Shown piece by piece: positions 376 through 13,087 of a DNA stretch of 46,829 nucleotides (positions are counted from its first letter, which is position 1; each line of letters opens with the position of its first letter). The position numbers and the translations under genes were made by a program. The notes beneath the pieces were generated by a model that was given only the letters and a program-made list of their open reading frames with translations, was not told the DNA's origin and did no database searches. This DNA is from Myxococcaceae bacterium (GTDB taxonomy: Bacteria > Myxococcota > Myxococcia > Myxococcales > Myxococcaceae). The DNA lies in contig JAFGNZ010000220.1 in the NCBI GenBank assembly GCA_016926755.1, positions 1 to 46,829 of the forward strand, in the 5' to 3' direction.

Positions 376-3300
376 CTAGTTGGACTTCGTGAGCGTCCGC
401 AGGGCCTCTGCCGCCGCGTCCTGGCCGCACTTCTTCGCGCCGGCCTGCTGCTGCTCCCCACTCGGCCTGGCCAGCTTCGTGAGCGCTGGCACCGCGTCCG
501 CGTCCCCCAGCGCCCCGAGCCGCCGCGCTGCCCTGGCGCGCACCTCGCAATCCTCCGAGGCCAGCGCCGTCACGTACAGCTCCACCAGGTCCAGCCCTTG
601 CGTGTCCTGCGCCGATTCCAGGTAGCGCAGCGCACCCCACTGCTTTGGCGAGGCGTCGCCCTCGGCCAGCGCCTCGAAGTGCCCGTGGAGGCGGTCCTTC
701 GGGAGGGCACCCAGCAGCTTGCGCAGCGGCTTGTTGCCTTCATCCGCGCCGAAGTCCTCCGCGAGCCCGTCCAGCAGTGGCGCCTCGAGATCCTCGAGGC
801 TGTCCGGAGCCAACCCCAGCAGGAGGTCGTGCTCCACGGCGTGCCGCTCCAGCCTGTGCAGCGCCAACGCGCGCAGCTGCCGCAGCTCCGGGCTCTTCTG
901 GCCGTTACCGCTCGCCATGTCGAGGCGCAGGAGCGCCTCCGCGGGTTTGCCCGCCTCCAGCAGTCGCCGCGCCTGCACCTCGGGGCTTCGGTTCCGCTGC
1001 CACAGCCCCACTCCTCCCAGGAGGAGGAGCCCCGCGATGAGCCCCACCCCGGCGAGCCGATGCGTCCTCGTTCCTAGCAGGGTCTTCCATGGAAGCACCG
1101 GCCGCTTCTCCGTGGGCGCGCCCACCAGATCCCTGCCACCGAAAGGAGGGCCCTCCGTGGCGGTGTGCTGGCTGCGGTAGAGCTTGAGCGGCTCTCCCCG
1201 GCCGGGCAGGGAGAGGGTGCCGCAGGCCTCGGCCACCACCTCGGCGCTGTCGCGCGAGAGGTCCACGGACTCGGTGAACGTCACCTCGCCCCCGAGGGCC
1301 ACCTGCTCCACGGCCTTCACCGTCTCCGTCGGCTCGCCCACCACGGTGTCCTGGGTGAGCAGCACCTCGCCCGCGTGGATGCAGATGCGGACGTGGAGCT
1401 GGGACTCGGGCGGCAGGCCCTGGTTGTGACGCCACAACCGGTCCTGCATCCCCATGCCGCAGAGCACCGCGCTCGTGGGCGAAGCGAACACCCCGAGCAC
1501 CAAGTCCCCGAGCTTCTGGACGAGCTTCCCCCCGTACTCGCGCAGCAGCGGCAGCAGGAGCTGCTCGTATGTCTCCAGCGCTCGCAGCTGCTCCTCGCGC
1601 GTCCGCTGGCTGGCGAGCTCGGCGAAGCCCTGAACGCTGGTGAGCATCAGCGTGAGGTTCTCCGCGAGCACGTCGCTGGGGGGGGCACGCAGGGCCCGGA
1701 GGGAGGGGACACTGGAGTCCTTCCCCGAGGGCACCGGGGGGCGCACGCTGGCGACACCTGGACTGCCGCCAGCGGGAGGAGGCGGGGGGGAAGCACCGAA
1801 GGCGGCCGTGCCGCTGCCGGTGGGAGGCGGCAGCGGTGAAGCCACGCGCGGCGCTCTGCCGAGGACGGGCGTGCTGGTGCCTGTCGGAGCGTCCCAGAAC
1901 TCGAACGTGGGAGCTGAGCCCCTCGCGACATCCGTATCGCCGCTGGCGGAGGGCTCCCACGGAACAGCGGCGGGCGGTGAGCCTCTCGCGACGGCTGTGT
2001 CGCCGTCCGCCGAGGGATCCCAGGAAGCAGAGGCGGGGAGCCAGAGCCCTCTGTCGCTTCCAGCCGCGGGCGCCACGGGCAAGGGAGCGGGAGAAGGCTT
2101 GCCGAAGGTCGCCCTGCTGCTCGCGACGAGAGGAGCCGCGGGGGACGAGGCTCGAGGCGCGGCGCCGAAGACGGCCAGGCCGCTTCCCACCGGCGGGGGC
2201 GTCCGGGGGGAAGCCCGTTCCATCCGAGGCGACACCTTGTTGCTGGAGATGGGTACAGGCGCCTGCGTGGGCACAGGGGGGGCTGCGCCGAAGGCTGCCG
2301 TGCCGCTGGAGACAGGGGGCGCGCCCGGTGCAGGCACTGGGGGCGCCGCGCGAGAGGCTGCTGCGCTGCTGGCAATGGGAGCGGGTCCCTGGGGCGGCAC
2401 CGGGGGGGCCGTGCCGAAGATCGAGGTGCCGCTGGAGACAGGAGGAGAACCCGGAGGAGGCACCGGGGGCGCCGCGCCGAAGACCGAGGTGCCGCTGGAG
2501 ACAGGTCCGCTGGGGGTGGGGGCCTGGACACTCGGAGGGGTGACGGTCTCCGGGAGAGGCCCCGAGGCCGCCTCGGCCAGCGCGTCCGCCAGCGCCTGGG
2601 CGTTCTGGAAGCGCTGGGTGGGATCCTTCTCCAGCAGCCGCATCACCAGCGCTACCAGCGCGGGGTTGACGGCCAGCGCGGGCGCGGCCCGATCCAGCGG
2701 CAGGGGCGCGGCGTTGGCGTGCTGCGAGATGTAGTGGCGTGGGCTGGGCCCATCGAACGGCAGCTGGCCCGAGAGGACGCGGTACGCCAGCACGCCGAGG
2801 CAGTACAGATCGCTGCGCTCATCCAACCGGGCGCCGATCGCCTGCTCGGGTGACATGTACTCGGGTGTGCCGAGCACCACGCCCACCTGGCTCACGTTGC
2901 TGTCGGCGTCCGGCTCGACGAGCCGGGCGATCCCGAAGTCCAGCAGCCGCGCCTGTTCGCCCCGGGGCGTGCGCGTCAGGAAGACGTTCTCGGGCTTGAT
3001 GTCGCGGTGGATGATCCCCTTCTCGTGGATGGCCGCCAGCCCCTCCGCGAGCTGACGCAGCATCGTGAGGGCTCGCGTGGGCGCCAGGGGCCCGCTCTGG
3101 AGCAGCTCGAACAGGCTCTCCCCCTCCACCAGCTCCATCACCAGACAGGCCGAGTGCTCGGACTCGCCAAAGTCGATGATCCGCACCAGCGTCGGGTGCT
3201 CCACCGCCGACAGCAGGCGCGCCTCGCGCTTGAAGCGCTCCAGCATCCCGTGCTGCTTGTGGAGATCATGGTGGAGCACCTTGATCGCCACCTTGCGCCC

Positions 3301-3438
3301 CAGGGAGACCTGCTCGCCCAGGTACACCGCACCCATCCCGCCCGACCCAAGCGGGCGGATCACCCGGAAGCGACCTTCGAGGACAAGTGAGTCGAGCGGC
3401 AGCACCGCGTGGCATCTTGTCCGAGATTGGCGCCGCAC
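376..3438 (-). CDS. Membrane Ser/Thr protein kinase with cyclase-like and HEAT-like domains
   Basis: This is a PknB-type kinase of about 1020 residues. Residues 24-290 hold a complete kinase domain: glycine loop GSGGMGAVYLG (31-41), Lys53 in VAIK, HRDIKPEN with Asp146, DFG 167-169 and GTPEYMSPEQ (190-199). Residues 291-590 are a Pro/Ala/Ser-rich linker with repeats of the type SGTxxFGAAPPVP. Residues 593-755 resemble a class III nucleotidyl cyclase domain, but the first metal-binding Asp is replaced (Ser601 in LTSVQGF) while the second remains (Asp645 in KLGD), so cyclase activity is doubtful. A single membrane segment lies at 794-812. The C-terminal 200 residues look helical and HEAT-like (ALASEDCEVRARAARRLGAL), probably periplasmic. 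The start is uncertain: GTG at 3438 or the in-frame GTG at 3405, neither with a clear Shine-Dalgarno. It is divergent from the giant TPR gene, 115 bp away. Kinase identity is certain; substrate and signal are unknown. Confidence 0.93.
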   Translation of the reverse strand: MRRQSRTRCHAVLPLDSLVLEGRFRVIRPLGSGGMGAVYLGEQVSLGRKVAIKVLHHDLHKQHGMLERFKREARLLSAVEHPTLVRIIDFGESEHSACLVMELVEGESLFELLQSGPLAPTRALTMLRQLAEGLAAIHEKGIIHRDIKPENVFLTRTPRGEQARLLDFGIARLVEPDADSNVSQVGVVLGTPEYMSPEQAIGARLDERSDLYCLGVLAYRVLSGQLPFDGPSPRHYISQHANAAPLPLDRAAPALAVNPALVALVMRLLEKDPTQRFQNAQALADALAEAASGPLPETVTPPSVQAPTPSGPVSSGTSVFGAAPPVPPPGSPPVSSGTSIFGTAPPVPPQGPAPIASSAAASRAAPPVPAPGAPPVSSGTAAFGAAPPVPTQAPVPISSNKVSPRMERASPRTPPPVGSGLAVFGAAPRASSPAAPLVASSRATFGKPSPAPLPVAPAAGSDRGLWLPASASWDPSADGDTAVARGSPPAAVPWEPSASGDTDVARGSAPTFEFWDAPTGTSTPVLGRAPRVASPLPPPTGSGTAAFGASPPPPPAGGSPGVASVRPPVPSGKDSSVPSLRALRAPPSDVLAENLTLMLTSVQGFAELASQRTREEQLRALETYEQLLLPLLREYGGKLVQKLGDLVLGVFASPTSAVLCGMGMQDRLWRHNQGLPPESQLHVRICIHAGEVLLTQDTVVGEPTETVKAVEQVALGGEVTFTESVDLSRDSAEVVAEACGTLSLPGRGEPLKLYRSQHTATEGPPFGGRDLVGAPTEKRPVLPWKTLLGTRTHRLAGVGLIAGLLLLGGVGLWQRNRSPEVQARRLLEAGKPAEALLRLDMASGNGQKSPELRQLRALALHRLERHAVEHDLLLGLAPDSLEDLEAPLLDGLAEDFGADEGNKPLRKLLGALPKDRLHGHFEALAEGDASPKQWGALRYLESAQDTQGLDLVELYVTALASEDCEVRARAARRLGALGDADAVPALTKLARPSGEQQQAGAKKCGQDAAAEALRTLTKSN

Positions 3439-3553: not shown

Positions 3554-6500
3554 ATGGCCACTGAAAGCGATTCTCCGAAGCCCGCGTCCGAATCGGGCGC
3601 TGCCTCCCCCGAGCTCCGGCTGCTGGACCGGCGTGCCTTCGTGGGCTTTCCGCCGCTGCCGCTCGCGCCCGGGCTGACCATCGCCGACTTCGCGCTGCAG
3701 ATCCCCGACGTCACCTTCCCGTTCAACGTCAGCGCGGGGGCCTCTCGCTACCAGCGCAAGAAGCTCCTCTTCGGCTTCCTGGAGCTGAGCGTCGACGCGG
3801 ACCTGGTGGCGCGCAAGGTGCAGGAGCTGGCTGGGAGGCTGGCGGGCCTCGAGGAGCTGAAGCTGCACTTCCGCCCCGGCTACCTGGAGGGCCAGGCGCG
3901 GCTGCAGGGGCCGGAGCACACCCCCATCACCTTCAAGCTGGCCTTCGACGGGGATGGCGAGAAGCTGGCCCTCTACGTCTACGACGTGCGGCTGTATGGC
4001 TTCTCCCCCACGGCCTCGGTGCAGGTGCCCGGCATCCTCGCCTCCGCGGTGGGGGCGCTCGGGCTGCTGCCGGAGGTGGAGGCGCAGGGCGCCACGGGCT
4101 TCACCACCCGCGTGCTGCCCGAGCTGTGCCGGCTGGCCTCGGTGACGCGTGGCTTCAAGATGCCGGAGCTGGACCAGGCGCGCCTGTCCGCCGCGGAGGT
4201 GTCCAGCAAGGGCCTGCGCCTGCGCTTCTCCTCCGGGGGCCTGCCGCCTCCGAACGCGCCGGACGATGAGCTGCTGCTGACGCTCGAGGGCGCGCGGGCC
4301 TTCGCGGAGGCCGAGGCGCTCATCGCCCAGGGCCGCCTGGCCGAGGCGCGCGAGGCGTACCTCCAGGCCGGGGATGCGCAGGACGCGCACCCCTTCGCCG
4401 CCGAGCGGCTCCTCTCGCTGCTCGTCGCGGATCCGCAGGCGCATGATCTGGCGCTGGACGTGGCGGCCACCGTGCTGCGCCGCCGCGAGCGGAGCCCGGC
4501 TTCCCTCTGGGGCGAGGCGGTGGTGCGCGAGCGCCGTGGCGAGGAGGCCCGCGCCGCGGAGCGCTACCTGGCCCTGAGCGCCCTCTCGCGCCGCACCTCC
4601 GAGGACGCCGCCGCCTTCTTCGCCGCCGAGGCCGCCGCCCGCTGCTCGCGCGACACCGCGCCCGCCGTGGCCGTGAAGGCGCTCCACGAGCTGCTGGGCC
4701 TCAGGCCGGACCACCTGCCTTCCCTCAAGGCCCTGGCGCGCGCCTCGGATCAGGCCAGGGACAGGGCTGGGGCGGTGCGGGCCTATCGCCGGCTGGCCGC
4801 GCTCACCCGGGATCCGGCCGAGGCCGCCGACGCCCACGTCCACCTGGCGCGCCTGTGCGCGCAGACCGAGGATGACGTCGCCGGCGCCCGGCTGCACTGC
4901 GAGGCCGCGCTGAGGCTCTCGCCGGACCAGCCGGACGCGCTGCTGCTGCTGGGCGAGCTGTGCCACCGCGACGGCGAGCACCTGCGCGCGCTCAAGGCGC
5001 TGGATCGGCTGCGCGAGGTGGCGCTCGCCCGGCACGAGCTGGACCGCGTGGGGCAGGCCAACCTGCTGGCCGGCCGTGTGTGGGAGGTGGGCCTCACGCA
5101 GCTGGACAACGCGCTGCTGCGCTACCGCGAGGCGGTGACGCTGCTGCCCGGAGATCCCGAGCCGCTCTTCGCCGCCGGCCACGTGGCCGAGAGCCTGGGC
5201 AAGGTGCAGGAGGCGCTCGCCGACTACCAGCAGGCGCTGGAGCTGGCGGGCCCCGCGCCGCGCACCGAGGCCGTGCGCAAGGCCGCGCACGCCAGCCACC
5301 ACGCCATGGCGCGGCTGTCCCGCACGAAGCTGGGAGATCCGGCGCGCGCCCGCGAGCACCTGGAGGCCGCGCTCGCGCTGGAGCCGAGGGATCTGGTGGC
5401 CCTCGAGGAGCTGATCCCCTACTTCCGCGCCACCGGCCGCGCGCAGGAGCTGGCCGACGCGCTGGAGAAGGCCGCCGCCGTGTACGAGGAGCCCGGCAAG
5501 CGCGCCGCCCTGTGGGCCGAGGCCGGCGAGCTGTACCGCGGCCGGCTCCAGCAGCCGGAGAAGGCCGAGCGGCTCCTCCTCTCCGCCATCGAGGCGGACC
5601 CGGACAACAAGCCGGCGCTGGAGGCCATGCTCGCCCTGGCCGAGGCGCGGCGGGACGGCGGCCTGCTCACCCGCTGCCTCGGTGCGCTCGCGCGCCTGAC
5701 GCCCGAGCCCAAGGAGCGCGCCCAGAAGTACCGCCGCCTCTCGGTGGCCGCGAGGGATCTCACCTTCGATCTGGACCTGGCCGTCCACGCGCTGCAGGAG
5801 GTGCTCAAGGCCGAGCCGGGCGATCTGCCCTCCCTGGGTGAGCTGTGCGCGCTCCAGCGCAAGCGCTCGGACATGGCGGGCCTGGCCACCGCGCTGGAGG
5901 AGCGCGCGCGCGTGGCCGAGGCCCAAGGCGACAAGCGGCTCGCGTCCGCGGCGCTGCGCGAGCTGGCCGGGGTGCTGGAGGCGCGGCTCGGCCGGATCGG
6001 CGAGGCGCTGGTGGCGATGGAGAAGGCCGCGCGCCTGGCGCCGGATCCGGGCGTCCTGCTGGATCTGGCGGACCTCTCGCTGCGCTGCGAGCGGCCGGAG
6101 CACGCCCGGAGCGCGCTGGAGGCGCTGCTGTCCTCCCTGCCGCGCACCGCCGCGCCCGAGCGCCTGGCCGACATCCGCGCCCGCCTGGGCCTCGCCTGCG
6201 AGCAGCTGGGAGATCGCGAGGGCGCCATCGCCGCCTACGCGCAGGCCTTCCCGCTGCGTCGCCTGGATGATGCGCTCGCCGCGCGGTTGGAGGCCCTCTA
6301 TAAGGAGGTCGGGGAGCTGCGCGAGCTGGCCGAGCTGTGGGGCACCCGCGCCCAGGCGCTCGTCGCCGCGGATCGCTCCGTGGAGGCCGCGCCCCTCTTC
6401 CTCAAGAGCGCTCGCCTGCTGCTGGAGCGCGGGGAGAAGCCCACCGCCCTGCTGCGCCTGTCCTCCGCCCTCGAGGCCGATCCCGAGGGCCCCCTGGCCG

Positions 6501-9500
6501 GAGAGGTGCTGGACGCGCTCGCCGAGCTGGAGCTGGAGCGCGGCGAGAAGCTGGAGGCCGCGAAGCTGTATGCGCGCAGGGCCACCCTCGTCTCCGAGGT
6601 GCGCGCCGGCGCCCGGCTGCTCTACCGCGCCTCGCTGCTGGCCGCGGGGACCAGCCGCGAGGAGTCCTACCTCGCCGAGGCCCTGGAGCGGGACGCCACC
6701 TTTGCCCCCGCCCGCATGCGCCGGGGCGAGCTGCGCCTGCCCACGGATCCTCGCGGCGCGCTGGAGGATCTCGAGGCGGTGCTCGCGCTGCCTCCCACGG
6801 ACCATGACGCCCCACGCGAGCAGGAGCTGCTCGGGCTGACCCGCAAGGCCGCCACCGCCGCGGTGCGGGCCGGCCGCACGGACTCCGCCCGGCGCCTGCT
6901 GGCGCAGTACAGCGCCCAGTCCCCCGCGGACCTCGAGGCCCAGCTCGAGCTGGCGAGCCTGCACCGCAAGGTGGGCGCGCGCGAGCCGCTGGCGGATCTG
7001 CTCACCGAGCTGTGGCCACGCCTCACGGGCGAGGCGCAGCGCAACGCCCGCCGCGAGCTCGCGGAGCTGGCCCTCACCCTGGGGCGAGCCCATGAGGCCG
7101 CCACGGCCCTGCGCTCGCTCCTCGTCGAGGAGCCGGGAGACCTGTGGGCGGCCCAGGCGCTCCTGTCGCTGCTGCCCTCGCCGGGGACCGGCACGCCGGA
7201 GCAGGAGGCCGAGCGGCTGACCCTGCTGAGCACCCAGATCTCCGCCGCCGAGGGCGAGGCCCGCGCCGAGCTGCTCGCCCGCCGCGCCGCGCTCCACCGC
7301 TCCGCGGGACGCCCCGCGGCCGCCCGGGATGACTATGCCGACGCCGCTCGGCTCGCCCGCAGGCCCGCGCCCCTGTTGCTCTCCCTGGCCGAGCTGGCCC
7401 GGGACGCGGGAGACGAGGTGGCCGAGCTGTCCGCGTGGCGCCGCGCGGTGGCCGCGGACGCGAGCCTCGGAGAGCGTGCGCGGGAGCGCCTGCTGGTGAT
7501 CGCCGCCTCCCTCGTGGAGAAGGATGCCCGCGCCGAGGCCCGTGAGGCCCTGCGGGCCGCCGTCGCGCTGGAGCTCCCCGCCGTGGATCGCTGCGAGGCC
7601 TTCTTTGCCCTGGCCACGCTCGCCCGGAGGGATGGACAGCCGGAGGCCGAGGCGGAGGCGCTCTCGGAGGCGGCGCGCCAGGGGCCCGTGCCTCGCCGGG
7701 TGGAGGTGCTGCTCGCGCGGGCCGCCCTGCTGGAGCAGCAGGGGAAGCGGGAGGAGGCGGCGCGCAGCCTGGACGCGGCGCTCTCGCTCTCACCGCGCCA
7801 CCCCGGGGCCACGCTCGCGCTGCAGCGGGTGCTCCGTGAGCTGGAGGACTGGGCCGGCCTGGCCGCGCTGCTCGCCTCCGAGGCGCCCCACGCACCTCCC
7901 TCGGCGGCCGCGGCGCTGTACTCCGAGCTCGCGGGCCTGTACCTCGATCGGCTGGAGGAGCCCGGTCCCGCCGAGGTCGCGCTGCGGGAGGCCCTCCGTC
8001 TGGCGCCCGATGACGCGAACGTGCGCCGCCGGCTCGTCTCGCTCGTGGTGAGCCGGGGCGAGCTGCTGGAGGCGGCCTCGTTGCTCGAGGCCGCGGCCGA
8101 GGGCGCCTCTCCCCAGGAGGCAGCCACCTTCCTGAGAGAGGGCGCGGTCCATGCCCGCGCTGCCTCCGAGCAGGAGCGGGCGCTGAGGCTCGCCCGTCGC
8201 GCGCACGCGCTCGTGCCCGCGGAGGGCCGGGATCTGGAGGAGCTGGCCGAGCTGCTCTTCCTATATGGAGATGTGAAGGAGGCGCTGCCGCTGCAGGAGA
8301 AGCTCGCGGCCGCCGTCGACTTCGCCAAGGAGCCCCAGCGCGCCGAGGCCACGCTGCGCCGCCTGGGCGAGGTGGCGGAGAAGGCAGGGGACACGAAGCG
8401 CGCGGTGGCGGCCTGGCGGCGGCTGACCGCGGAGAACCCTCGGGACGAGGTGGCCGTCCAGCGGCTCGCCGCGCTCCTCGAGAGGAACGATCCCCGCAGC
8501 GCGTTCGAGGTGCTCGTCTCGCACGCGAAGGCGCTGCCGCCGTCGGAGGACACGGCCCGGCGCCTCGTGGAGCTGTCGGAGCGGGCGCGTGCCTCGCTGG
8601 CGGATGTCGCGGTGGCCGCTTCGCTGCTGACCCGCGCGGCGGAGATGGCCTCGGAGCCGCTGCCGCTGCGCCAGCAGCTCGCCGCGCTCTACCGGGAGCA
8701 GGGCCAGACGCAGGAGCTGCTCGCGGAGCTGCGCCGGGTGGCCACGCTCAGCACCCAGGTGGGGGACGTGGATGCAGCGGTCGCCGCCTATGACGAGGAG
8801 GCCCGGCTCGCCGAGGACTCGGGCCGGATGGATGAGGCCCTCGAGGCGCTGAATGCGCTGAGGGATCTGCTGGAGTCTCAGGGCAAGCCCGCCGCCGCAG
8901 CTGCCCTCGAGCGCCGCCGCGCCGAGCTGCTGCGAGACGTGAAGCTGGACCTCGCCGCGGCCGAGGAGTCCCTGGAGCGCTCCTTCCAGCTGAAGGCGGA
9001 CCTCGAGACGACGCAGATGGGCGAGGTGCTCGCCGCGCGCCGAGAGGACCCGGCCGCGCAGGCGCGCTGGCTGGAGCGCATGCTGCCGCTGCAGGCCGGT
9101 GCGCAGGAGCAGGGCGCGGTGCTGCTGAGGCTGGCGCGGCTGAACCTGGGCGTGCTGGCCGACGCTGGAAAGGCGGAGGGCTTCCTTCGGGAGGCCCTGC
9201 GCCGTGACCGCACCCTGGCGGAGGCGGAGAAGCTCCTGGCGGAGCTGCTGGAGCAGGACGGGCGCATGGCGGAGCTGGCCGCCTGGTACGAGGACTCCGC
9301 CGCGGAAGAGGTGGATCCCGGGCGCCGCTCGCTCCTGCTCAGGCGCGCGGCCACGCTCTACCGGGAGCGGGCCGGTCGCCCGGAGGCCGCTGCCGCCGCG
9401 TTGCTCGCCGCGCGGTCCGCCGCGCCGGATGACCTGGAGCTCACCGCGCAGGCCGCGGACCTGCTCCACGAGGTGGGGCGCGCCGAGGACGCCGCGGAGT

Positions 9501-12500
9501 TCGATGCCCTCCTCCTGGAGGGGGATCCCTTCCGGGAGCCTGTCTTCACGCGCCACCGTGACTTCCTGACCGAGACGGGGGAGCACCAGTCGCTCGCGGC
9601 GCTGATGCTGCGCAGGGCCCAGCGCCAGCAGCCGCGCGAGGCCGCCGAGAGTTACCTGAGCGCCGCCCGCGCCTTCCGGGAGGCCGGTGCCCGGGAGCGC
9701 GCGCTGCTGTGCGAGGACCAGGCCTTCGAGCTGGATGCCGCCAACGCCGAGGCCTTCGGGCTGCTGCGCGAGCGGATGAAGGGGGACGTGCGCCGGCTGG
9801 CGGAGCTGCTGGCCCAGCGCGCCGCCGCCGTGCCCGCGGAGGAGGCGCTGCCCCTGCTGCGCGAGCGGGCCCAGCGCCTGCTGGAGGCTGGGGAGTCGCT
9901 GCTGGCGGCAGAGGCCTTCGATGTGTACCTCGCCCAGGCGGGGGAGGACGTGGAGGCCCTGTCCGCGCGCGCCGAGCTGGCCGCGCAAGGTGGGGGGCCG
10001 ACCGCCGCCCAGGCCTATGATCGGCGCCTGGTGGCCGTGGGGGAGGGGCTGCCCGTCTCTGCCCGCGTGCGCACCTGGCTGCGCCTGGGACACGCGTCGC
10101 TCGCCTCGGGGGCCTACCGGGATGCGGCGGATGCCTTCGAGGCGGTGGTCTCGCTGGATCCGGAGGGGGAGCGCGGCAACGAGGCGCTGTCGCTGCTCAC
10201 CGAGGCCTACTCGCGCACGGGCAACACGGCGGGGCTCTACCGTGCCTCGCTCCAGCTCGCGCGCAAGGCGGATGGCGCGACGGCGGAGGTGCTCTACCGC
10301 CGCGCCGCGGATCTCTTCGATGATCCGACGCAGGCCATTGACGCGCTGCTGCCCCTGACGCGCCTGCGCCCGGCGGACGCCACCCTCATCGACCGGGCGG
10401 TGGAGGGGCTGCGCGCCCTGGGCCGCCACACCGAGCTGCTGGAGGTGTACGAGGCAGGGGCCACCGCCGCGGGAGGCGCTCGCGCCGCGGAGCTGCTGCT
10501 GGCCGCCGCGAACGTCGCCGAGGCGGAGCTGGTGGACCCCTCGCTGGCGTGGACCCTGCGGGAGCGTGCCGCGGAGGCGGATCCCGCTCACGAGGCGGCG
10601 CTGCGCAAGCTCGTGGAGGGGCTGCGCCAGCGGGGTGACTCCGAGCGGCTGCTGGAGGCGCTGCAGCGGCTGGTGGCGCAGACGCAGGACGCGGATGAGG
10701 CCTCGTTGCTGCGGCTGGAGCTCGCCTCGCTCGCCCGTACGGCTGGCCAGGGCTCGCTCGCTCGCGAGTCGCTGGAGGCGGTGGTGGCGCGAGGGGCCTC
10801 GGGCTCGGGCTACGGGGACGCGCTGGAGGCCCTGGAGCCGTTGCTGGCGGACGAGCCTGCCCGGCGCGCCGAGATCCGGATGGCGCGCGCGGAGCTCGCC
10901 GAGGGGAGCGCGCGGACGGAGTTGCTCGTCTCCGCGGCGCGAGACTTCGAGGCCGTCGGCCGCACCTCGGACGCGCTGAAGGCGGCGAAGGCCGCGGCCT
11001 CCGTCGCGCCGGAGGTGCCCACGCTGCGGCTGCTGTCGCACCTGTATCGCGCCTCGGAGGATGCTCCGCGCGCGGCGAAGGCGCTGCTGCAGGCGGTCCG
11101 CTCCGCCTCGTCCGGGGAGAAGCCCGCGCTGCTGCTGGAGGCCGCCGAGCTCTGGGAGAAGGCCGGAGAGAAGGCCGAGGCCCTGGAGGTCATCGAGCGC
11201 ATCGCGTCCGAGGCCCCTGAGGCGATGACGCCGACGGAGCTGGCCGAGCGCTTCCTGCGGCTCGGAGCCTCCGCTCGGGCCGTCGAGGTGGGCTTCGGTC
11301 CCGCGATGGCCGCCGGAAAGCTGACGGACGCGCTGGCCCTCGCCGAGGCAGCGGGGAATGCGGAGCGTGTGCGCGAGGCGCTCTGGGCGCTCGCGGACGT
11401 GCCGGACGTGGATCCCACGCACGTGGACAGGCTGGTGGAGGGCCTGCGCGCGGAGGAGGACCTCGCGGGGCTGCTGCGGCTGGCGGACCTCATCACCGGG
11501 CGCGACGCGGAGCTCGCGGTGAAGCTGCGGGGCGAGGTGCTTGACGCGTCGGCGGCGCCCGTGGAGCTGCGCCTGCGTGCGCTCGAGGTGCTGGCCTCCG
11601 GCCCGGACTTTGGCACCCGACTCGACGGCCTGCTGCCGGGCCTCGGGCGGCTGCCGAAGGAGCTCGCCGAGGCCCTGCTCGTCCACGTCCGTGCGCTGGC
11701 CCCGGCGGAGCGCATCGAGGCGTTGGGCGCGGTGGCGGAGGGCTGGGCCGAGCGGCGGGCGGCCTTCCTGCGCGAGCGGCTCGAGCTGGAGCGTGCCGAG
11801 GGCCGTGGCGAGGGCGCGGAGCGCACCCTGGCGCGGCTCATCGACGGCGAGACGGATGCGGGGGCGCGGGTGGCCCTGCGGCTGGAGCAGGGCGAGCTGT
11901 TGCTCTCACTCCAGCAGCAGGAGCGGGCGCGGGAGTCCTTCGAGCGCGCGCTGGCGGAGGACGCCGCGTGCCTGTCGGCGGTGAAGCACCTGCTGGCGCT
12001 GCACCAGGAGACGCGAGACAGCGAGGCCTTCGTCTCGATGGCGGGGCGCCTGGAGTCGCTGGCCGGGGCCGAGGCGCTGGAGCCCTACCGCGAGCGCCTG
12101 GCGGATGCCTATGAGGCCCTGGAGCGGCGGGCGGAGGCCGCGGCCCAGCTCGCGGCGCTGCCCGAGACGCCGGAGCGGCTGGCGCGGCGCGTGAGGCTGG
12201 CGGAGGAGCGCGGCCTCACGGGCGAGGCGCTGCAGCTCCGCGAGCGGCTGACGGACGAGCCGCCGGTGCTGGAGTCCATCCTCCGTGGCTATCTGGACGC
12301 GCAGCTCATCCCCTTCGCGGTGAAGCTGGCCGAGCGGCTGCTGGCGCGTGAGGCGCTCTCGGCGGAGGCCACGCGCCTGGTAGCCGAGCGGCTCTCGCCC
12401 TCGATTGAAGGCGCCCTGCTGGCCACGCGCCTCTGGCCGGTGCTGCTGAGGGAGAAGCCCTTCGACGTGGATGGGTGGACGCTGTACGCGGAGGCGCAGC

Positions 12501-13087
12501 GGCGGCTTGGCCGGAGCGAGGCCGCCGAGCGCGTGGACGGCATCGCCGCCGTGCTGTCCTCCAGCGAGGCTCCCTCGCCCGCGGCGCATGTTCAGCCCCT
12601 GCCGCGGCCTGACGGCTTCCGCCATGCCCCGCCTCCGGGCACGCGGGAGGTGACGGAGGAGAGCCTGCCGCGGTTGCACATGGCGCTCCGGCCCACGCTG
12701 GAGAAGCTGGGGGCGGGCGGTCTGCGGGTGCTGCTGGATCCGGCGGGTGGCGTGGAGGCGTACCTCACCGGCCCGGATGAGCTGGTGTTGGGAGCCGGGG
12801 CGCTCACCTGCTTCGGCCCGGTGGAGCTGAGCTACCTCTGCGCGCTGGCGCTGAGCCTCGGGGAGGCGGGGGTGGCGCTCGCCCGGCCGGGCCCGGTGCC
12901 GGGTCTGGCGGAGGCGGCGGTGGCGGCCTTCCGCGCGGTGCCGGCCTCGCTGGCGGCGGGGCGGGTGCTGGCGCGGCTGGATCCGGACATGCGGGGGGCC
13001 AACCCCACCCAGGTGGACGAGGCGGCGGTGCTGGCCGGCAGCCCGGTCTTCCGCGCGGTGGCCCTCACGGCGCTCGAGCTCGTGTAG
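3554..13087 (+). CDS. Giant tetratricopeptide-repeat protein, 3177 residues
   Basis: One uninterrupted frame of 9.5 kb. Residues 1-240 are not TPR: they have a disordered start and a beta-rich segment around 25-210 that I do not recognise. From about 245 to 2950 the protein is an array of helix-turn-helix repeats with TPR periodicity and A/L/E/R-rich consensus pieces such as ALELAGPA, AAERYLALSALSRR and LLLGELCHRDGEHLRALKAL. Residues from about 3030 to 3177 form a compact non-repetitive domain (around LRVLLDPAGGVEAYL and PVELSYLCALALSLGEAG) of unknown function. There is no signal peptide or obvious membrane segment, so it is probably a cytoplasmic scaffold. The ATG at 3554 has no strong Shine-Dalgarno but is the first good start after the palindrome. 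It is transcribed away from the kinase gene, which suggests joint function or control (inference). Myxobacteria carry many large TPR proteins, but few this long. Confidence 0.9.
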   Translation: MATESDSPKPASESGAASPELRLLDRRAFVGFPPLPLAPGLTIADFALQIPDVTFPFNVSAGASRYQRKKLLFGFLELSVDADLVARKVQELAGRLAGLEELKLHFRPGYLEGQARLQGPEHTPITFKLAFDGDGEKLALYVYDVRLYGFSPTASVQVPGILASAVGALGLLPEVEAQGATGFTTRVLPELCRLASVTRGFKMPELDQARLSAAEVSSKGLRLRFSSGGLPPPNAPDDELLLTLEGARAFAEAEALIAQGRLAEAREAYLQAGDAQDAHPFAAERLLSLLVADPQAHDLALDVAATVLRRRERSPASLWGEAVVRERRGEEARAAERYLALSALSRRTSEDAAAFFAAEAAARCSRDTAPAVAVKALHELLGLRPDHLPSLKALARASDQARDRAGAVRAYRRLAALTRDPAEAADAHVHLARLCAQTEDDVAGARLHCEAALRLSPDQPDALLLLGELCHRDGEHLRALKALDRLREVALARHELDRVGQANLLAGRVWEVGLTQLDNALLRYREAVTLLPGDPEPLFAAGHVAESLGKVQEALADYQQALELAGPAPRTEAVRKAAHASHHAMARLSRTKLGDPARAREHLEAALALEPRDLVALEELIPYFRATGRAQELADALEKAAAVYEEPGKRAALWAEAGELYRGRLQQPEKAERLLLSAIEADPDNKPALEAMLALAEARRDGGLLTRCLGALARLTPEPKERAQKYRRLSVAARDLTFDLDLAVHALQEVLKAEPGDLPSLGELCALQRKRSDMAGLATALEERARVAEAQGDKRLASAALRELAGVLEARLGRIGEALVAMEKAARLAPDPGVLLDLADLSLRCERPEHARSALEALLSSLPRTAAPERLADIRARLGLACEQLGDREGAIAAYAQAFPLRRLDDALAARLEALYKEVGELRELAELWGTRAQALVAADRSVEAAPLFLKSARLLLERGEKPTALLRLSSALEADPEGPLAGEVLDALAELELERGEKLEAAKLYARRATLVSEVRAGARLLYRASLLAAGTSREESYLAEALERDATFAPARMRRGELRLPTDPRGALEDLEAVLALPPTDHDAPREQELLGLTRKAATAAVRAGRTDSARRLLAQYSAQSPADLEAQLELASLHRKVGAREPLADLLTELWPRLTGEAQRNARRELAELALTLGRAHEAATALRSLLVEEPGDLWAAQALLSLLPSPGTGTPEQEAERLTLLSTQISAAEGEARAELLARRAALHRSAGRPAAARDDYADAARLARRPAPLLLSLAELARDAGDEVAELSAWRRAVAADASLGERARERLLVIAASLVEKDARAEAREALRAAVALELPAVDRCEAFFALATLARRDGQPEAEAEALSEAARQGPVPRRVEVLLARAALLEQQGKREEAARSLDAALSLSPRHPGATLALQRVLRELEDWAGLAALLASEAPHAPPSAAAALYSELAGLYLDRLEEPGPAEVALREALRLAPDDANVRRRLVSLVVSRGELLEAASLLEAAAEGASPQEAATFLREGAVHARAASEQERALRLARRAHALVPAEGRDLEELAELLFLYGDVKEALPLQEKLAAAVDFAKEPQRAEATLRRLGEVAEKAGDTKRAVAAWRRLTAENPRDEVAVQRLAALLERNDPRSAFEVLVSHAKALPPSEDTARRLVELSERARASLADVAVAASLLTRAAEMASEPLPLRQQLAALYREQGQTQELLAELRRVATLSTQVGDVDAAVAAYDEEARLAEDSGRMDEALEALNALRDLLESQGKPAAAAALERRRAELLRDVKLDLAAAEESLERSFQLKADLETTQMGEVLAARREDPAAQARWLERMLPLQAGAQEQGAVLLRLARLNLGVLADAGKAEGFLREALRRDRTLAEAEKLLAELLEQDGRMAELAAWYEDSAAEEVDPGRRSLLLRRAATLYRERAGRPEAAAAALLAARSAAPDDLELTAQAADLLHEVGRAEDAAEFDALLLEGDPFREPVFTRHRDFLTETGEHQSLAALMLRRAQRQQPREAAESYLSAARAFREAGARERALLCEDQAFELDAANAEAFGLLRERMKGDVRRLAELLAQRAAAVPAEEALPLLRERAQRLLEAGESLLAAEAFDVYLAQAGEDVEALSARAELAAQGGGPTAAQAYDRRLVAVGEGLPVSARVRTWLRLGHASLASGAYRDAADAFEAVVSLDPEGERGNEALSLLTEAYSRTGNTAGLYRASLQLARKADGATAEVLYRRAADLFDDPTQAIDALLPLTRLRPADATLIDRAVEGLRALGRHTELLEVYEAGATAAGGARAAELLLAAANVAEAELVDPSLAWTLRERAAEADPAHEAALRKLVEGLRQRGDSERLLEALQRLVAQTQDADEASLLRLELASLARTAGQGSLARESLEAVVARGASGSGYGDALEALEPLLADEPARRAEIRMARAELAEGSARTELLVSAARDFEAVGRTSDALKAAKAAASVAPEVPTLRLLSHLYRASEDAPRAAKALLQAVRSASSGEKPALLLEAAELWEKAGEKAEALEVIERIASEAPEAMTPTELAERFLRLGASARAVEVGFGPAMAAGKLTDALALAEAAGNAERVREALWALADVPDVDPTHVDRLVEGLRAEEDLAGLLRLADLITGRDAELAVKLRGEVLDASAAPVELRLRALEVLASGPDFGTRLDGLLPGLGRLPKELAEALLVHVRALAPAERIEALGAVAEGWAERRAAFLRERLELERAEGRGEGAERTLARLIDGETDAGARVALRLEQGELLLSLQQQERARESFERALAEDAACLSAVKHLLALHQETRDSEAFVSMAGRLESLAGAEALEPYRERLADAYEALERRAEAAAQLAALPETPERLARRVRLAEERGLTGEALQLRERLTDEPPVLESILRGYLDAQLIPFAVKLAERLLAREALSAEATRLVAERLSPSIEGALLATRLWPVLLREKPFDVDGWTLYAEAQRRLGRSEAAERVDGIAAVLSSSEAPSPAAHVQPLPRPDGFRHAPPPGTREVTEESLPRLHMALRPTLEKLGAGGLRVLLDPAGGVEAYLTGPDELVLGAGALTCFGPVELSYLCALALSLGEAGVALARPGPVPGLAEAAVAAFRAVPASLAAGRVLARLDPDMRGANPTQVDEAAVLAGSPVFRAVALTALELV

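Follow-up and report, generated by a model that had tools for sequence, protein, structure and literature searches.

A Pkn2-type membrane kinase of the Myxococcaceae whose cyclase homology domain appears to be a pseudo-cyclase

The gene considered here lies at positions 376..3438, on the minus strand, of a 46,829-nucleotide stretch of DNA from a Myxococcaceae bacterium (GenBank assembly GCA_016926755.1, contig JAFGNZ010000220.1), which as a whole is called the window in the following. Judged from its sequence, the product is an orthologue of Pkn2 of Myxococcus xanthus, the architecture of which was already laid out in a 2005 paper (PMC1262709). The comparison of orthologues shows that the class III cyclase homology domain (CHD) of these proteins lacks the base-reading Lys/Glu and the catalytic Asn throughout the set and the catalytic Arg nearly always, while the first metal-binding Asp is missing in a part of the set only. 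With the fold kept and the catalytic residues gone, the domain appears to be a pseudo-cyclase. We consider it fairly probable that the window gene encodes a single-pass membrane Ser/Thr kinase, a former membrane cyclase, in which the pseudo-cyclase CHD relays a signal from outside.

The CHD comprises residues 593–755 (1174..1662; minus strand, as for all parts of this gene), as delimited by Pfam and a structure model, and the Pfam family Guanylate_cyc (PF00211) matches residues 593–749 with 27.1 bits against a cut-off of 21.9 (E 3.7e-6). When the CHD is aligned to a cyclase of this genome that is intact, Ser601, Gln641, Asp645, Thr698, Glu705 and Ala709 stand at the six positions of the class III active site. 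The residues found at these positions were counted in 53 of the 67 orthologues, with a single sequence taken from each genome. The second metal Asp (D2; Asp645, 1504..1506) is conserved in 53/53. At the base-reading Lys/Glu position (Gln641, 1516..1518) there are 52 Gln and 1 His, with Lys/Glu in 0/53, and the catalytic Asn position (Glu705, 1324..1326) has Glu in 49 sequences, Gln in 4 and Asn in 0/53. The catalytic Arg position (Ala709, 1312..1314) is occupied by Ala (34), Ser (11), Thr (5), Gly (1) or Glu (1), and by Arg in a single orthologue (L028). The second specificity position is more mixed, with 23 Thr, 14 Ala, 12 Ser, 2 Met and 2 Gly; Thr was at one stage taken as a loss here, but this was dropped because many intact cyclases of these genomes share it. 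Compared with the class III nucleotidyl cyclases (PF00211; the nearest solved ones being Ma1120 and Cya2), the CHD of the window protein thus shares the fold and D2, and is without the first Asp and hence the metal-binding pair, the base-reading Lys/Glu, and the transition-state Asn and Arg. The view of the preliminary description of this DNA that the domain is a pseudo-enzyme agrees with these missing residues.

That description also placed Ser601 (1636..1638) at the first metal Asp (D1) with Asp645 retained, which the alignment confirms; an alternative acidic residue at the metal site was not found in it. However, this Asp is the only loss that the description named, and the orthologues point to others. 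The D1 position is Asp in 44 of the 53, Ser in 8 (Ser601 included) and Thr in 1, so the Asp is far from absent in all of them. Ser601 is accordingly rejected as the root of inactivity, since 44/53 keep the first Asp while the Asn, Arg and Lys/Glu positions are lost across the whole family. On the tree, the state of D1 requires two changes, one for the genus of the window together with G042 and one for G080, and a single clade for all nine losses is rejected (approximately unbiased test, p 1.4e-8). This tree is a quick one with long branches, calculated under LG+G4 from 44 of the 53 rows with the D1 columns excluded and nine rows of Myxococcus/Corallococcus type that lie close to others omitted. 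The changes are read as losses because both the sister cyclases and the rows that branch deepest (L044, L045, L057) have Asp. Ser/Thr601 would have arisen later than the other losses, at least twice, and is limited to certain lineages.

We now consider the fold and the constraint acting on the domain. In the AlphaFold model, residues 580–1020 have a mean pLDDT of 87.1, with values of 82 to 96 for the blocks of the CHD, and a Foldseek search with the CHD model matches Cya2, Ma1120 and CyaB, with a TM-score of up to 0.93 by target length (Ma1120). A phmmer search of the PDB sequences with the single CHD returned nothing at E <= 1, and a CHD profile found Ma1120 at 3e-21. Site rates were calculated from 43 orthologues, namely those with D1, L045 omitted. 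The median rate is 0.17 for the kinase, 0.27 for the CHD, 1.0 for the linker and 1.46 for the tail, and 23 CHD columns are invariant across the 53 sequences. Within the CHD, Gln641 lies at the 4th rate percentile, D2 at about the 17th, the Arg position at the 75th and the second specificity position at the 87.5th. The rate of D1, also at the 17th percentile, was dropped as evidence of conservation, because the 43 rows were picked for having D1. To judge from these rates, the CHD is under constraint without the pocket being singled out, except perhaps for Gln641.

The rest of the protein follows the order given in the preliminary description, i.e. kinase, long linker, CHD, transmembrane (TM) helix and helical-repeat tail, as borne out by Pfam and TM prediction. 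The open reading frame (ORF) has 1020 codons (1020 residues), with a GTG at 3438, the stop at 376–378 and a G+C content at third codon positions (GC3) of 0.87. Translation probably begins at the second GTG (codon 12, at 3405), which would give a product of 1009 residues: this is where the alignable region of the orthologues opens, and counted from the same codon the orthologue of M. xanthus has 830 residues. The Hanks/PknB-type kinase domain (residues 25–284, 2587..3366; Pfam Pkinase, PF00069, E 6.1e-50) is intact, as had been stated, since all five residues checked, K53, E72, D146, N151 and D167, are present and invariant in 53/53 orthologues. It is followed by a Pro/Ala/Ser/Thr-rich linker (1684..2550) in which PPVSSGTxxFG-like repeats are seen by eye. 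Between the alignment marks this linker measures 312 residues, the maximum among the 53 orthologues (range 54–312, median 123).

The TM helix is predicted at residues 795–813 (1000..1056), and the C-terminal tail of TPR/HEAT-like helical repeats, assigned from Pfam and the structure model, takes up residues 820–1020 (379..981). The tail model has a mean pLDDT of 92.6. For the HEAT tail proposed previously, the two Pfam matches fall just short of their cut-offs, HEAT_2 at residues 928–991 with 25.8 bits against 27.7 and HEAT_PBS with 19.6 against 20.9. A Foldseek search with the tail model gave 0 matches at E <= 0.001, and its HEAT/ARM/TPR matches were weak. The tail is probably located outside the inner membrane, on the far side from the kinase as had been suggested: the 15 residues before the TM helix contain more Lys/Arg than those after it in 45/53 orthologues (fewer in 4), and Cys964 (547..549) and Cys1004 (427..429) are both Cys in 53/53. 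The tail is the fastest-evolving part of the protein, yet it keeps both cysteines, which may be joined by a disulfide bond.

In favour of orthology to Pkn2, the domain order matches the printed description of PKN2. In the 2005 paper (PMC1262709), the M. xanthus protein is described as a kinase, an Ala/Ser/Pro/Thr-rich stretch, an adenylyl/guanylyl cyclase (AC/GC) domain, a TM segment and nearly 200 residues outside. There it is also stated that the PKN2 kinase has every catalytic residue, in contrast to the kinase-like region of guanylyl cyclases from eukaryotes, and the nucleotide specificity of the AC/GC domain is left unclear. Excerpts of later papers report that beta-lactamase is phosphorylated in E. 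coli by Pkn2, that disruption of pkn2 leads to fewer spores (PMC2877116), and that Pkn2 phosphorylates HU-alpha, the DNA binding of which is thereby stopped (PMC6213207). In the excerpts of these three papers the CHD is not called inactive, and that of PMC7694542 contains no mention of a cyclase. In the open-access literature searched, largely at listing level, we found no report that Pkn2 has lost its cyclase residues throughout the family, and no paper on a pseudocyclase.

The window protein has all five Pkn2 traits (kinase, ASPT-rich linker, AC/GC domain, TM helix and a tail of ~200 residues) and the active kinase residues as well; it differs from M. xanthus Pkn2 by its longer linker and by Ser in place of the first Asp. 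In M. xanthus AM003, the orthologue (L100), at 830 residues from the conserved GTG, has what we take to be the published length of Pkn2. Its kinase part is 71% identical to that of the window protein (221/312 columns), and the part from the CHD through the TM helix and the tail 48% (212/443). A Pkn2-type match is present in 67/96 genomes of the family (best E 2.3e-61 or lower), and 99 genomes from other families of the phylum gave no match as good as E 2.3e-61. In a scan of named genomes, genes of this type were found in Hyalangium, Pyxidicoccus, Myxococcus, Citreicoccus, Corallococcus and Archangium.

Parts of the protein recur in other combinations. Tail relatives that have both Cys are found on kinase-TM-tail proteins that have no CHD (L044/L119, L068, L069, L070, L071), and also on CHD-TM-tail proteins that have no kinase (L072/L120, L086), the cyclase residues of which are intact by eye; L044 = L119 and L072 = L120 are one place each under two labels. 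At L119, the kinase-TM-tail gene without CHD lies directly upstream of a kinase-CHD-TM-tail gene, with the tail cysteines in both. Three relatives (L066, L090, L093) align to the window protein from the CHD through the tail with 33–34% identity. The sister membrane cyclase of the window's genome (G000:C398, L059) shares with the window protein the order CHD-TM-tail, a PF(G/A) motif following the CHD and two Cys at the end of the tail (by eye). In contrast to the window protein it has no kinase and all six cyclase residues are present, and the match between the tails is weak (E 0.0007 over the last part, in a search limited to ten sequences in which seven relatives score 3e-6 to 0.006).

In a tree of 60 CHDs, those of Pkn2 group together (SH-aLRT 87), nested in a set (94) to which the CHD-TM-tail relatives with intact cyclase residues also belong, although both nodes are unstarred and long branches are present. 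Two degraded kinase-fused CHDs, L127 and L128, are placed beside Pkn2 (86). They belong to myxobacterial metagenome-assembled genomes, one titled Anaeromyxobacter, and in both an ORF that combines a kinase with a strongly degraded CHD lies near another ORF, the CHD of which looks intact (ORFs at offsets 4010 and 5889 in L127, 3917 and 5697 in L128), a possible pseudo-cyclase/cyclase pair. Paired CHDs with unlike losses are also seen by eye in L080 (= L124), L126 and L079, in neighbouring ORFs or in one ORF: one CHD has Gly at the second Asp with Asn/Arg kept, and the other has both Asps with Gln for Asn. These pairs look like the two halves of one enzyme.

As regards fusion to kinases in general, D1, D2, Asn or Arg has been lost in 8/8 kinase-fused CHDs of the window's genome (L001, L162, L164, L165, L166, L170, L171, L172) against 4/19 of the others (Fisher p 0.0002; one partial of the 28 matches omitted). 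In six other genomes, 5/8 kinase-fused CHDs are broken against 17/67 others (75/82 matches classified, the seven omitted including the Pkn2 of G006; a seventh genome, G126, gave no match). In these counts, partly aligned domains are scored as broken and kinases upstream of truncated ORFs may be missed. Since the pattern is weaker in the six genomes, we do not claim that fusion to a kinase inactivates CHDs as a rule. Among systems with a similar combination of domains, the TOMM kinase/cyclase fusion (TIGR03903) also has an N-terminal kinase and a cyclase domain on one chain; however, the window protein scores 159.6 with this model against a cut-off of 705.75, in one stretch in the kinase part.

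CHDs of the class III superfamily form dimers, and a scheme for the action of Pkn2 can be proposed on this basis. The tail outside would sense a ligand or the state of the envelope, which would alter the pairing of two protomers. The paired CHDs would pass the change across the TM helix to the linkers, and these would bring two kinases together, leading to trans-autophosphorylation and to a signal to cytoplasmic targets. As to descent, we infer that a kinase would have been added at the front of a membrane cyclase of CHD-TM-tail order, the cyclase output of which was lost afterwards.

It is important to point out that several observations weigh against this picture. According to an excerpt of PMC4215837, Ma1120, which keeps the Arg, is active with Ala at the Asn position, and therefore loss of the Asn alone is no proof of inactivity; the case for an inactive CHD rests also on the Arg and Lys/Glu positions for this reason. 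Kinase-CHD fusions with an intact CHD exist (L082–L085, by eye; L154, L203, L208), so that the fusion as such does not imply a dead CHD. The window protein itself is among the 4 orthologues with fewer positive charges before the TM helix, with 3 Lys/Arg before it and 4 after. Furthermore, a specificity Glu is reported as conserved in PKN2 in PMC1262709, where our alignment has Gln. The M. xanthus orthologue was equated with PKN2 (gi|1709642) by description and by its length of 830 residues. The genome taken as that of M. xanthus AM003 (G078) has 14 PF00211 matches, two of them on ORFs in which a kinase is seen, and of these two only Pkn2 has ~200 residues past the TM helix, the other stopping 38 residues after the CHD; as some ORFs of this genome are truncated at the start in the stretches analysed, an additional kinase fusion may be missed.

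Other roles of the CHD were also considered. As the preliminary description proposed, it could be a nucleotide sensor, with ATP/GTP or a cyclic nucleotide bound in the old pocket without turnover and the occupancy setting the kinase activity. The retention of D2 (53/53), Gln641 (52/53) and D1 (44/53) fits this, and the slowly evolving Gln641 could face a purine. However, D2 is no slower than many other CHD sites, the Arg and second specificity positions drift, and D1, one of the two metal ligands, is gone in the lineage of the window; we regard a sensor as unlikely, though with some real chance of being right. That the CHD serves as a passive, slowly decaying spacer, with no part in signalling, would be in line with the existence of kinase-TM-tail proteins without any CHD and with the two losses of D1, but the median rate of the CHD is close to that of the kinase and far below those of linker and tail, and together with the 23 invariant columns this makes a spacer very improbable. 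Even harder to credit is a CHD that is still a cyclase with unusual chemistry. The tolerance of Ma1120 to Ala for Asn could be invoked (PMC4215837, excerpt), but in Pkn2 the Arg (52/53) and the Lys/Glu (53/53) are lost as well, and in the window's lineage also D1.

A different type of alternative is that the Pkn2 CHD is one half of a composite active site. In mammalian cyclases, the active-site residues are divided between the C1 and C2 domains, and 44/53 orthologues have the Asp pair as in C1 and are without most of the contributions of C2. A two-Asp Pkn2 CHD could pair with a cyclase supplying the Lys, Asp/Thr, Asn and Arg, which would tie the state of the kinase to cyclic AMP (cAMP), with the link broken in the window's species by Ser601. 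The partner could be the sister membrane cyclase, with its full set of six residues and its CHD-TM-tail order, or a CHD of the type of L168 (G000:C273). The latter is a small CHD protein in which the first Asp is replaced by Ala (G000) or Gly (G062) and the Lys, Asn and Arg are kept; relatives of it occur in 65/96 genomes of the family, and the one in G006 is fully intact. CHDs of this type are present in 64/67 genomes with Pkn2 and in 1/29 of the others, and 2/3 of those read lack D1 and have Lys, Asn and Arg. The co-occurrence, however, tracks the family tree, the third CHD read, that of G006, does not have the expected loss, and the window's species retains an L168-type gene although its own Pkn2 is without D1. 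A half-site of this kind is therefore assigned a small chance. Its more specific form, in which the mostly two-Asp Pkn2 CHD completes a site with the sister cyclase of related tail, splitting the signal into phosphorylation and cAMP, and the Hyalangium lineage cut the link through Ser601, we find slightly more doubtful still. The relay function of the pseudo-cyclase CHD is the reading that we retain.

Beside the pkn2-type gene, at 3554..13087 on the plus strand, lies a divergently transcribed gene for a TPR protein of 3177 residues, which is a conserved neighbour of pkn2. It adjoins pkn2 in 39/49 loci scanned; several of these loci come from a genome that is present in two collections, and contig ends account for some of the ten misses. 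Over the longest matched piece, this giant protein is ~77–91% identical in other myxobacterial loci, and it is more conserved than Pkn2. A Myxococcus-type pkn2 locus adjoining the same TPR gene is also present in a record titled Comamonas sp. KCTC 72670 (L104, BNCN01000012.1); it looks as if the title is wrong or the assembly mislabelled.

The window protein is thus of a known kind, and its notable feature is the family-wide loss of the cyclase residues in Pkn2, of which we found no report in the literature searched. The comparison answers in part the question of specificity left over from 2005, in that the cyclase-like domain of Pkn2 is without the residues of catalysis throughout the family. 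Because these are missing, it makes more sense to test the CHD for a role as dimer, ligand or transmission module. Animal receptor guanylyl cyclases likewise combine a kinase-like and a cyclase domain in a single membrane protein, but there the cyclase part works and the kinase part lacks the catalytic residues; Pkn2, with its TM helix after the CHD, would be their mirror image. One family of proteins would then carry related sensor tails on a kinase, on a cyclase, or on a kinase with a dead cyclase.

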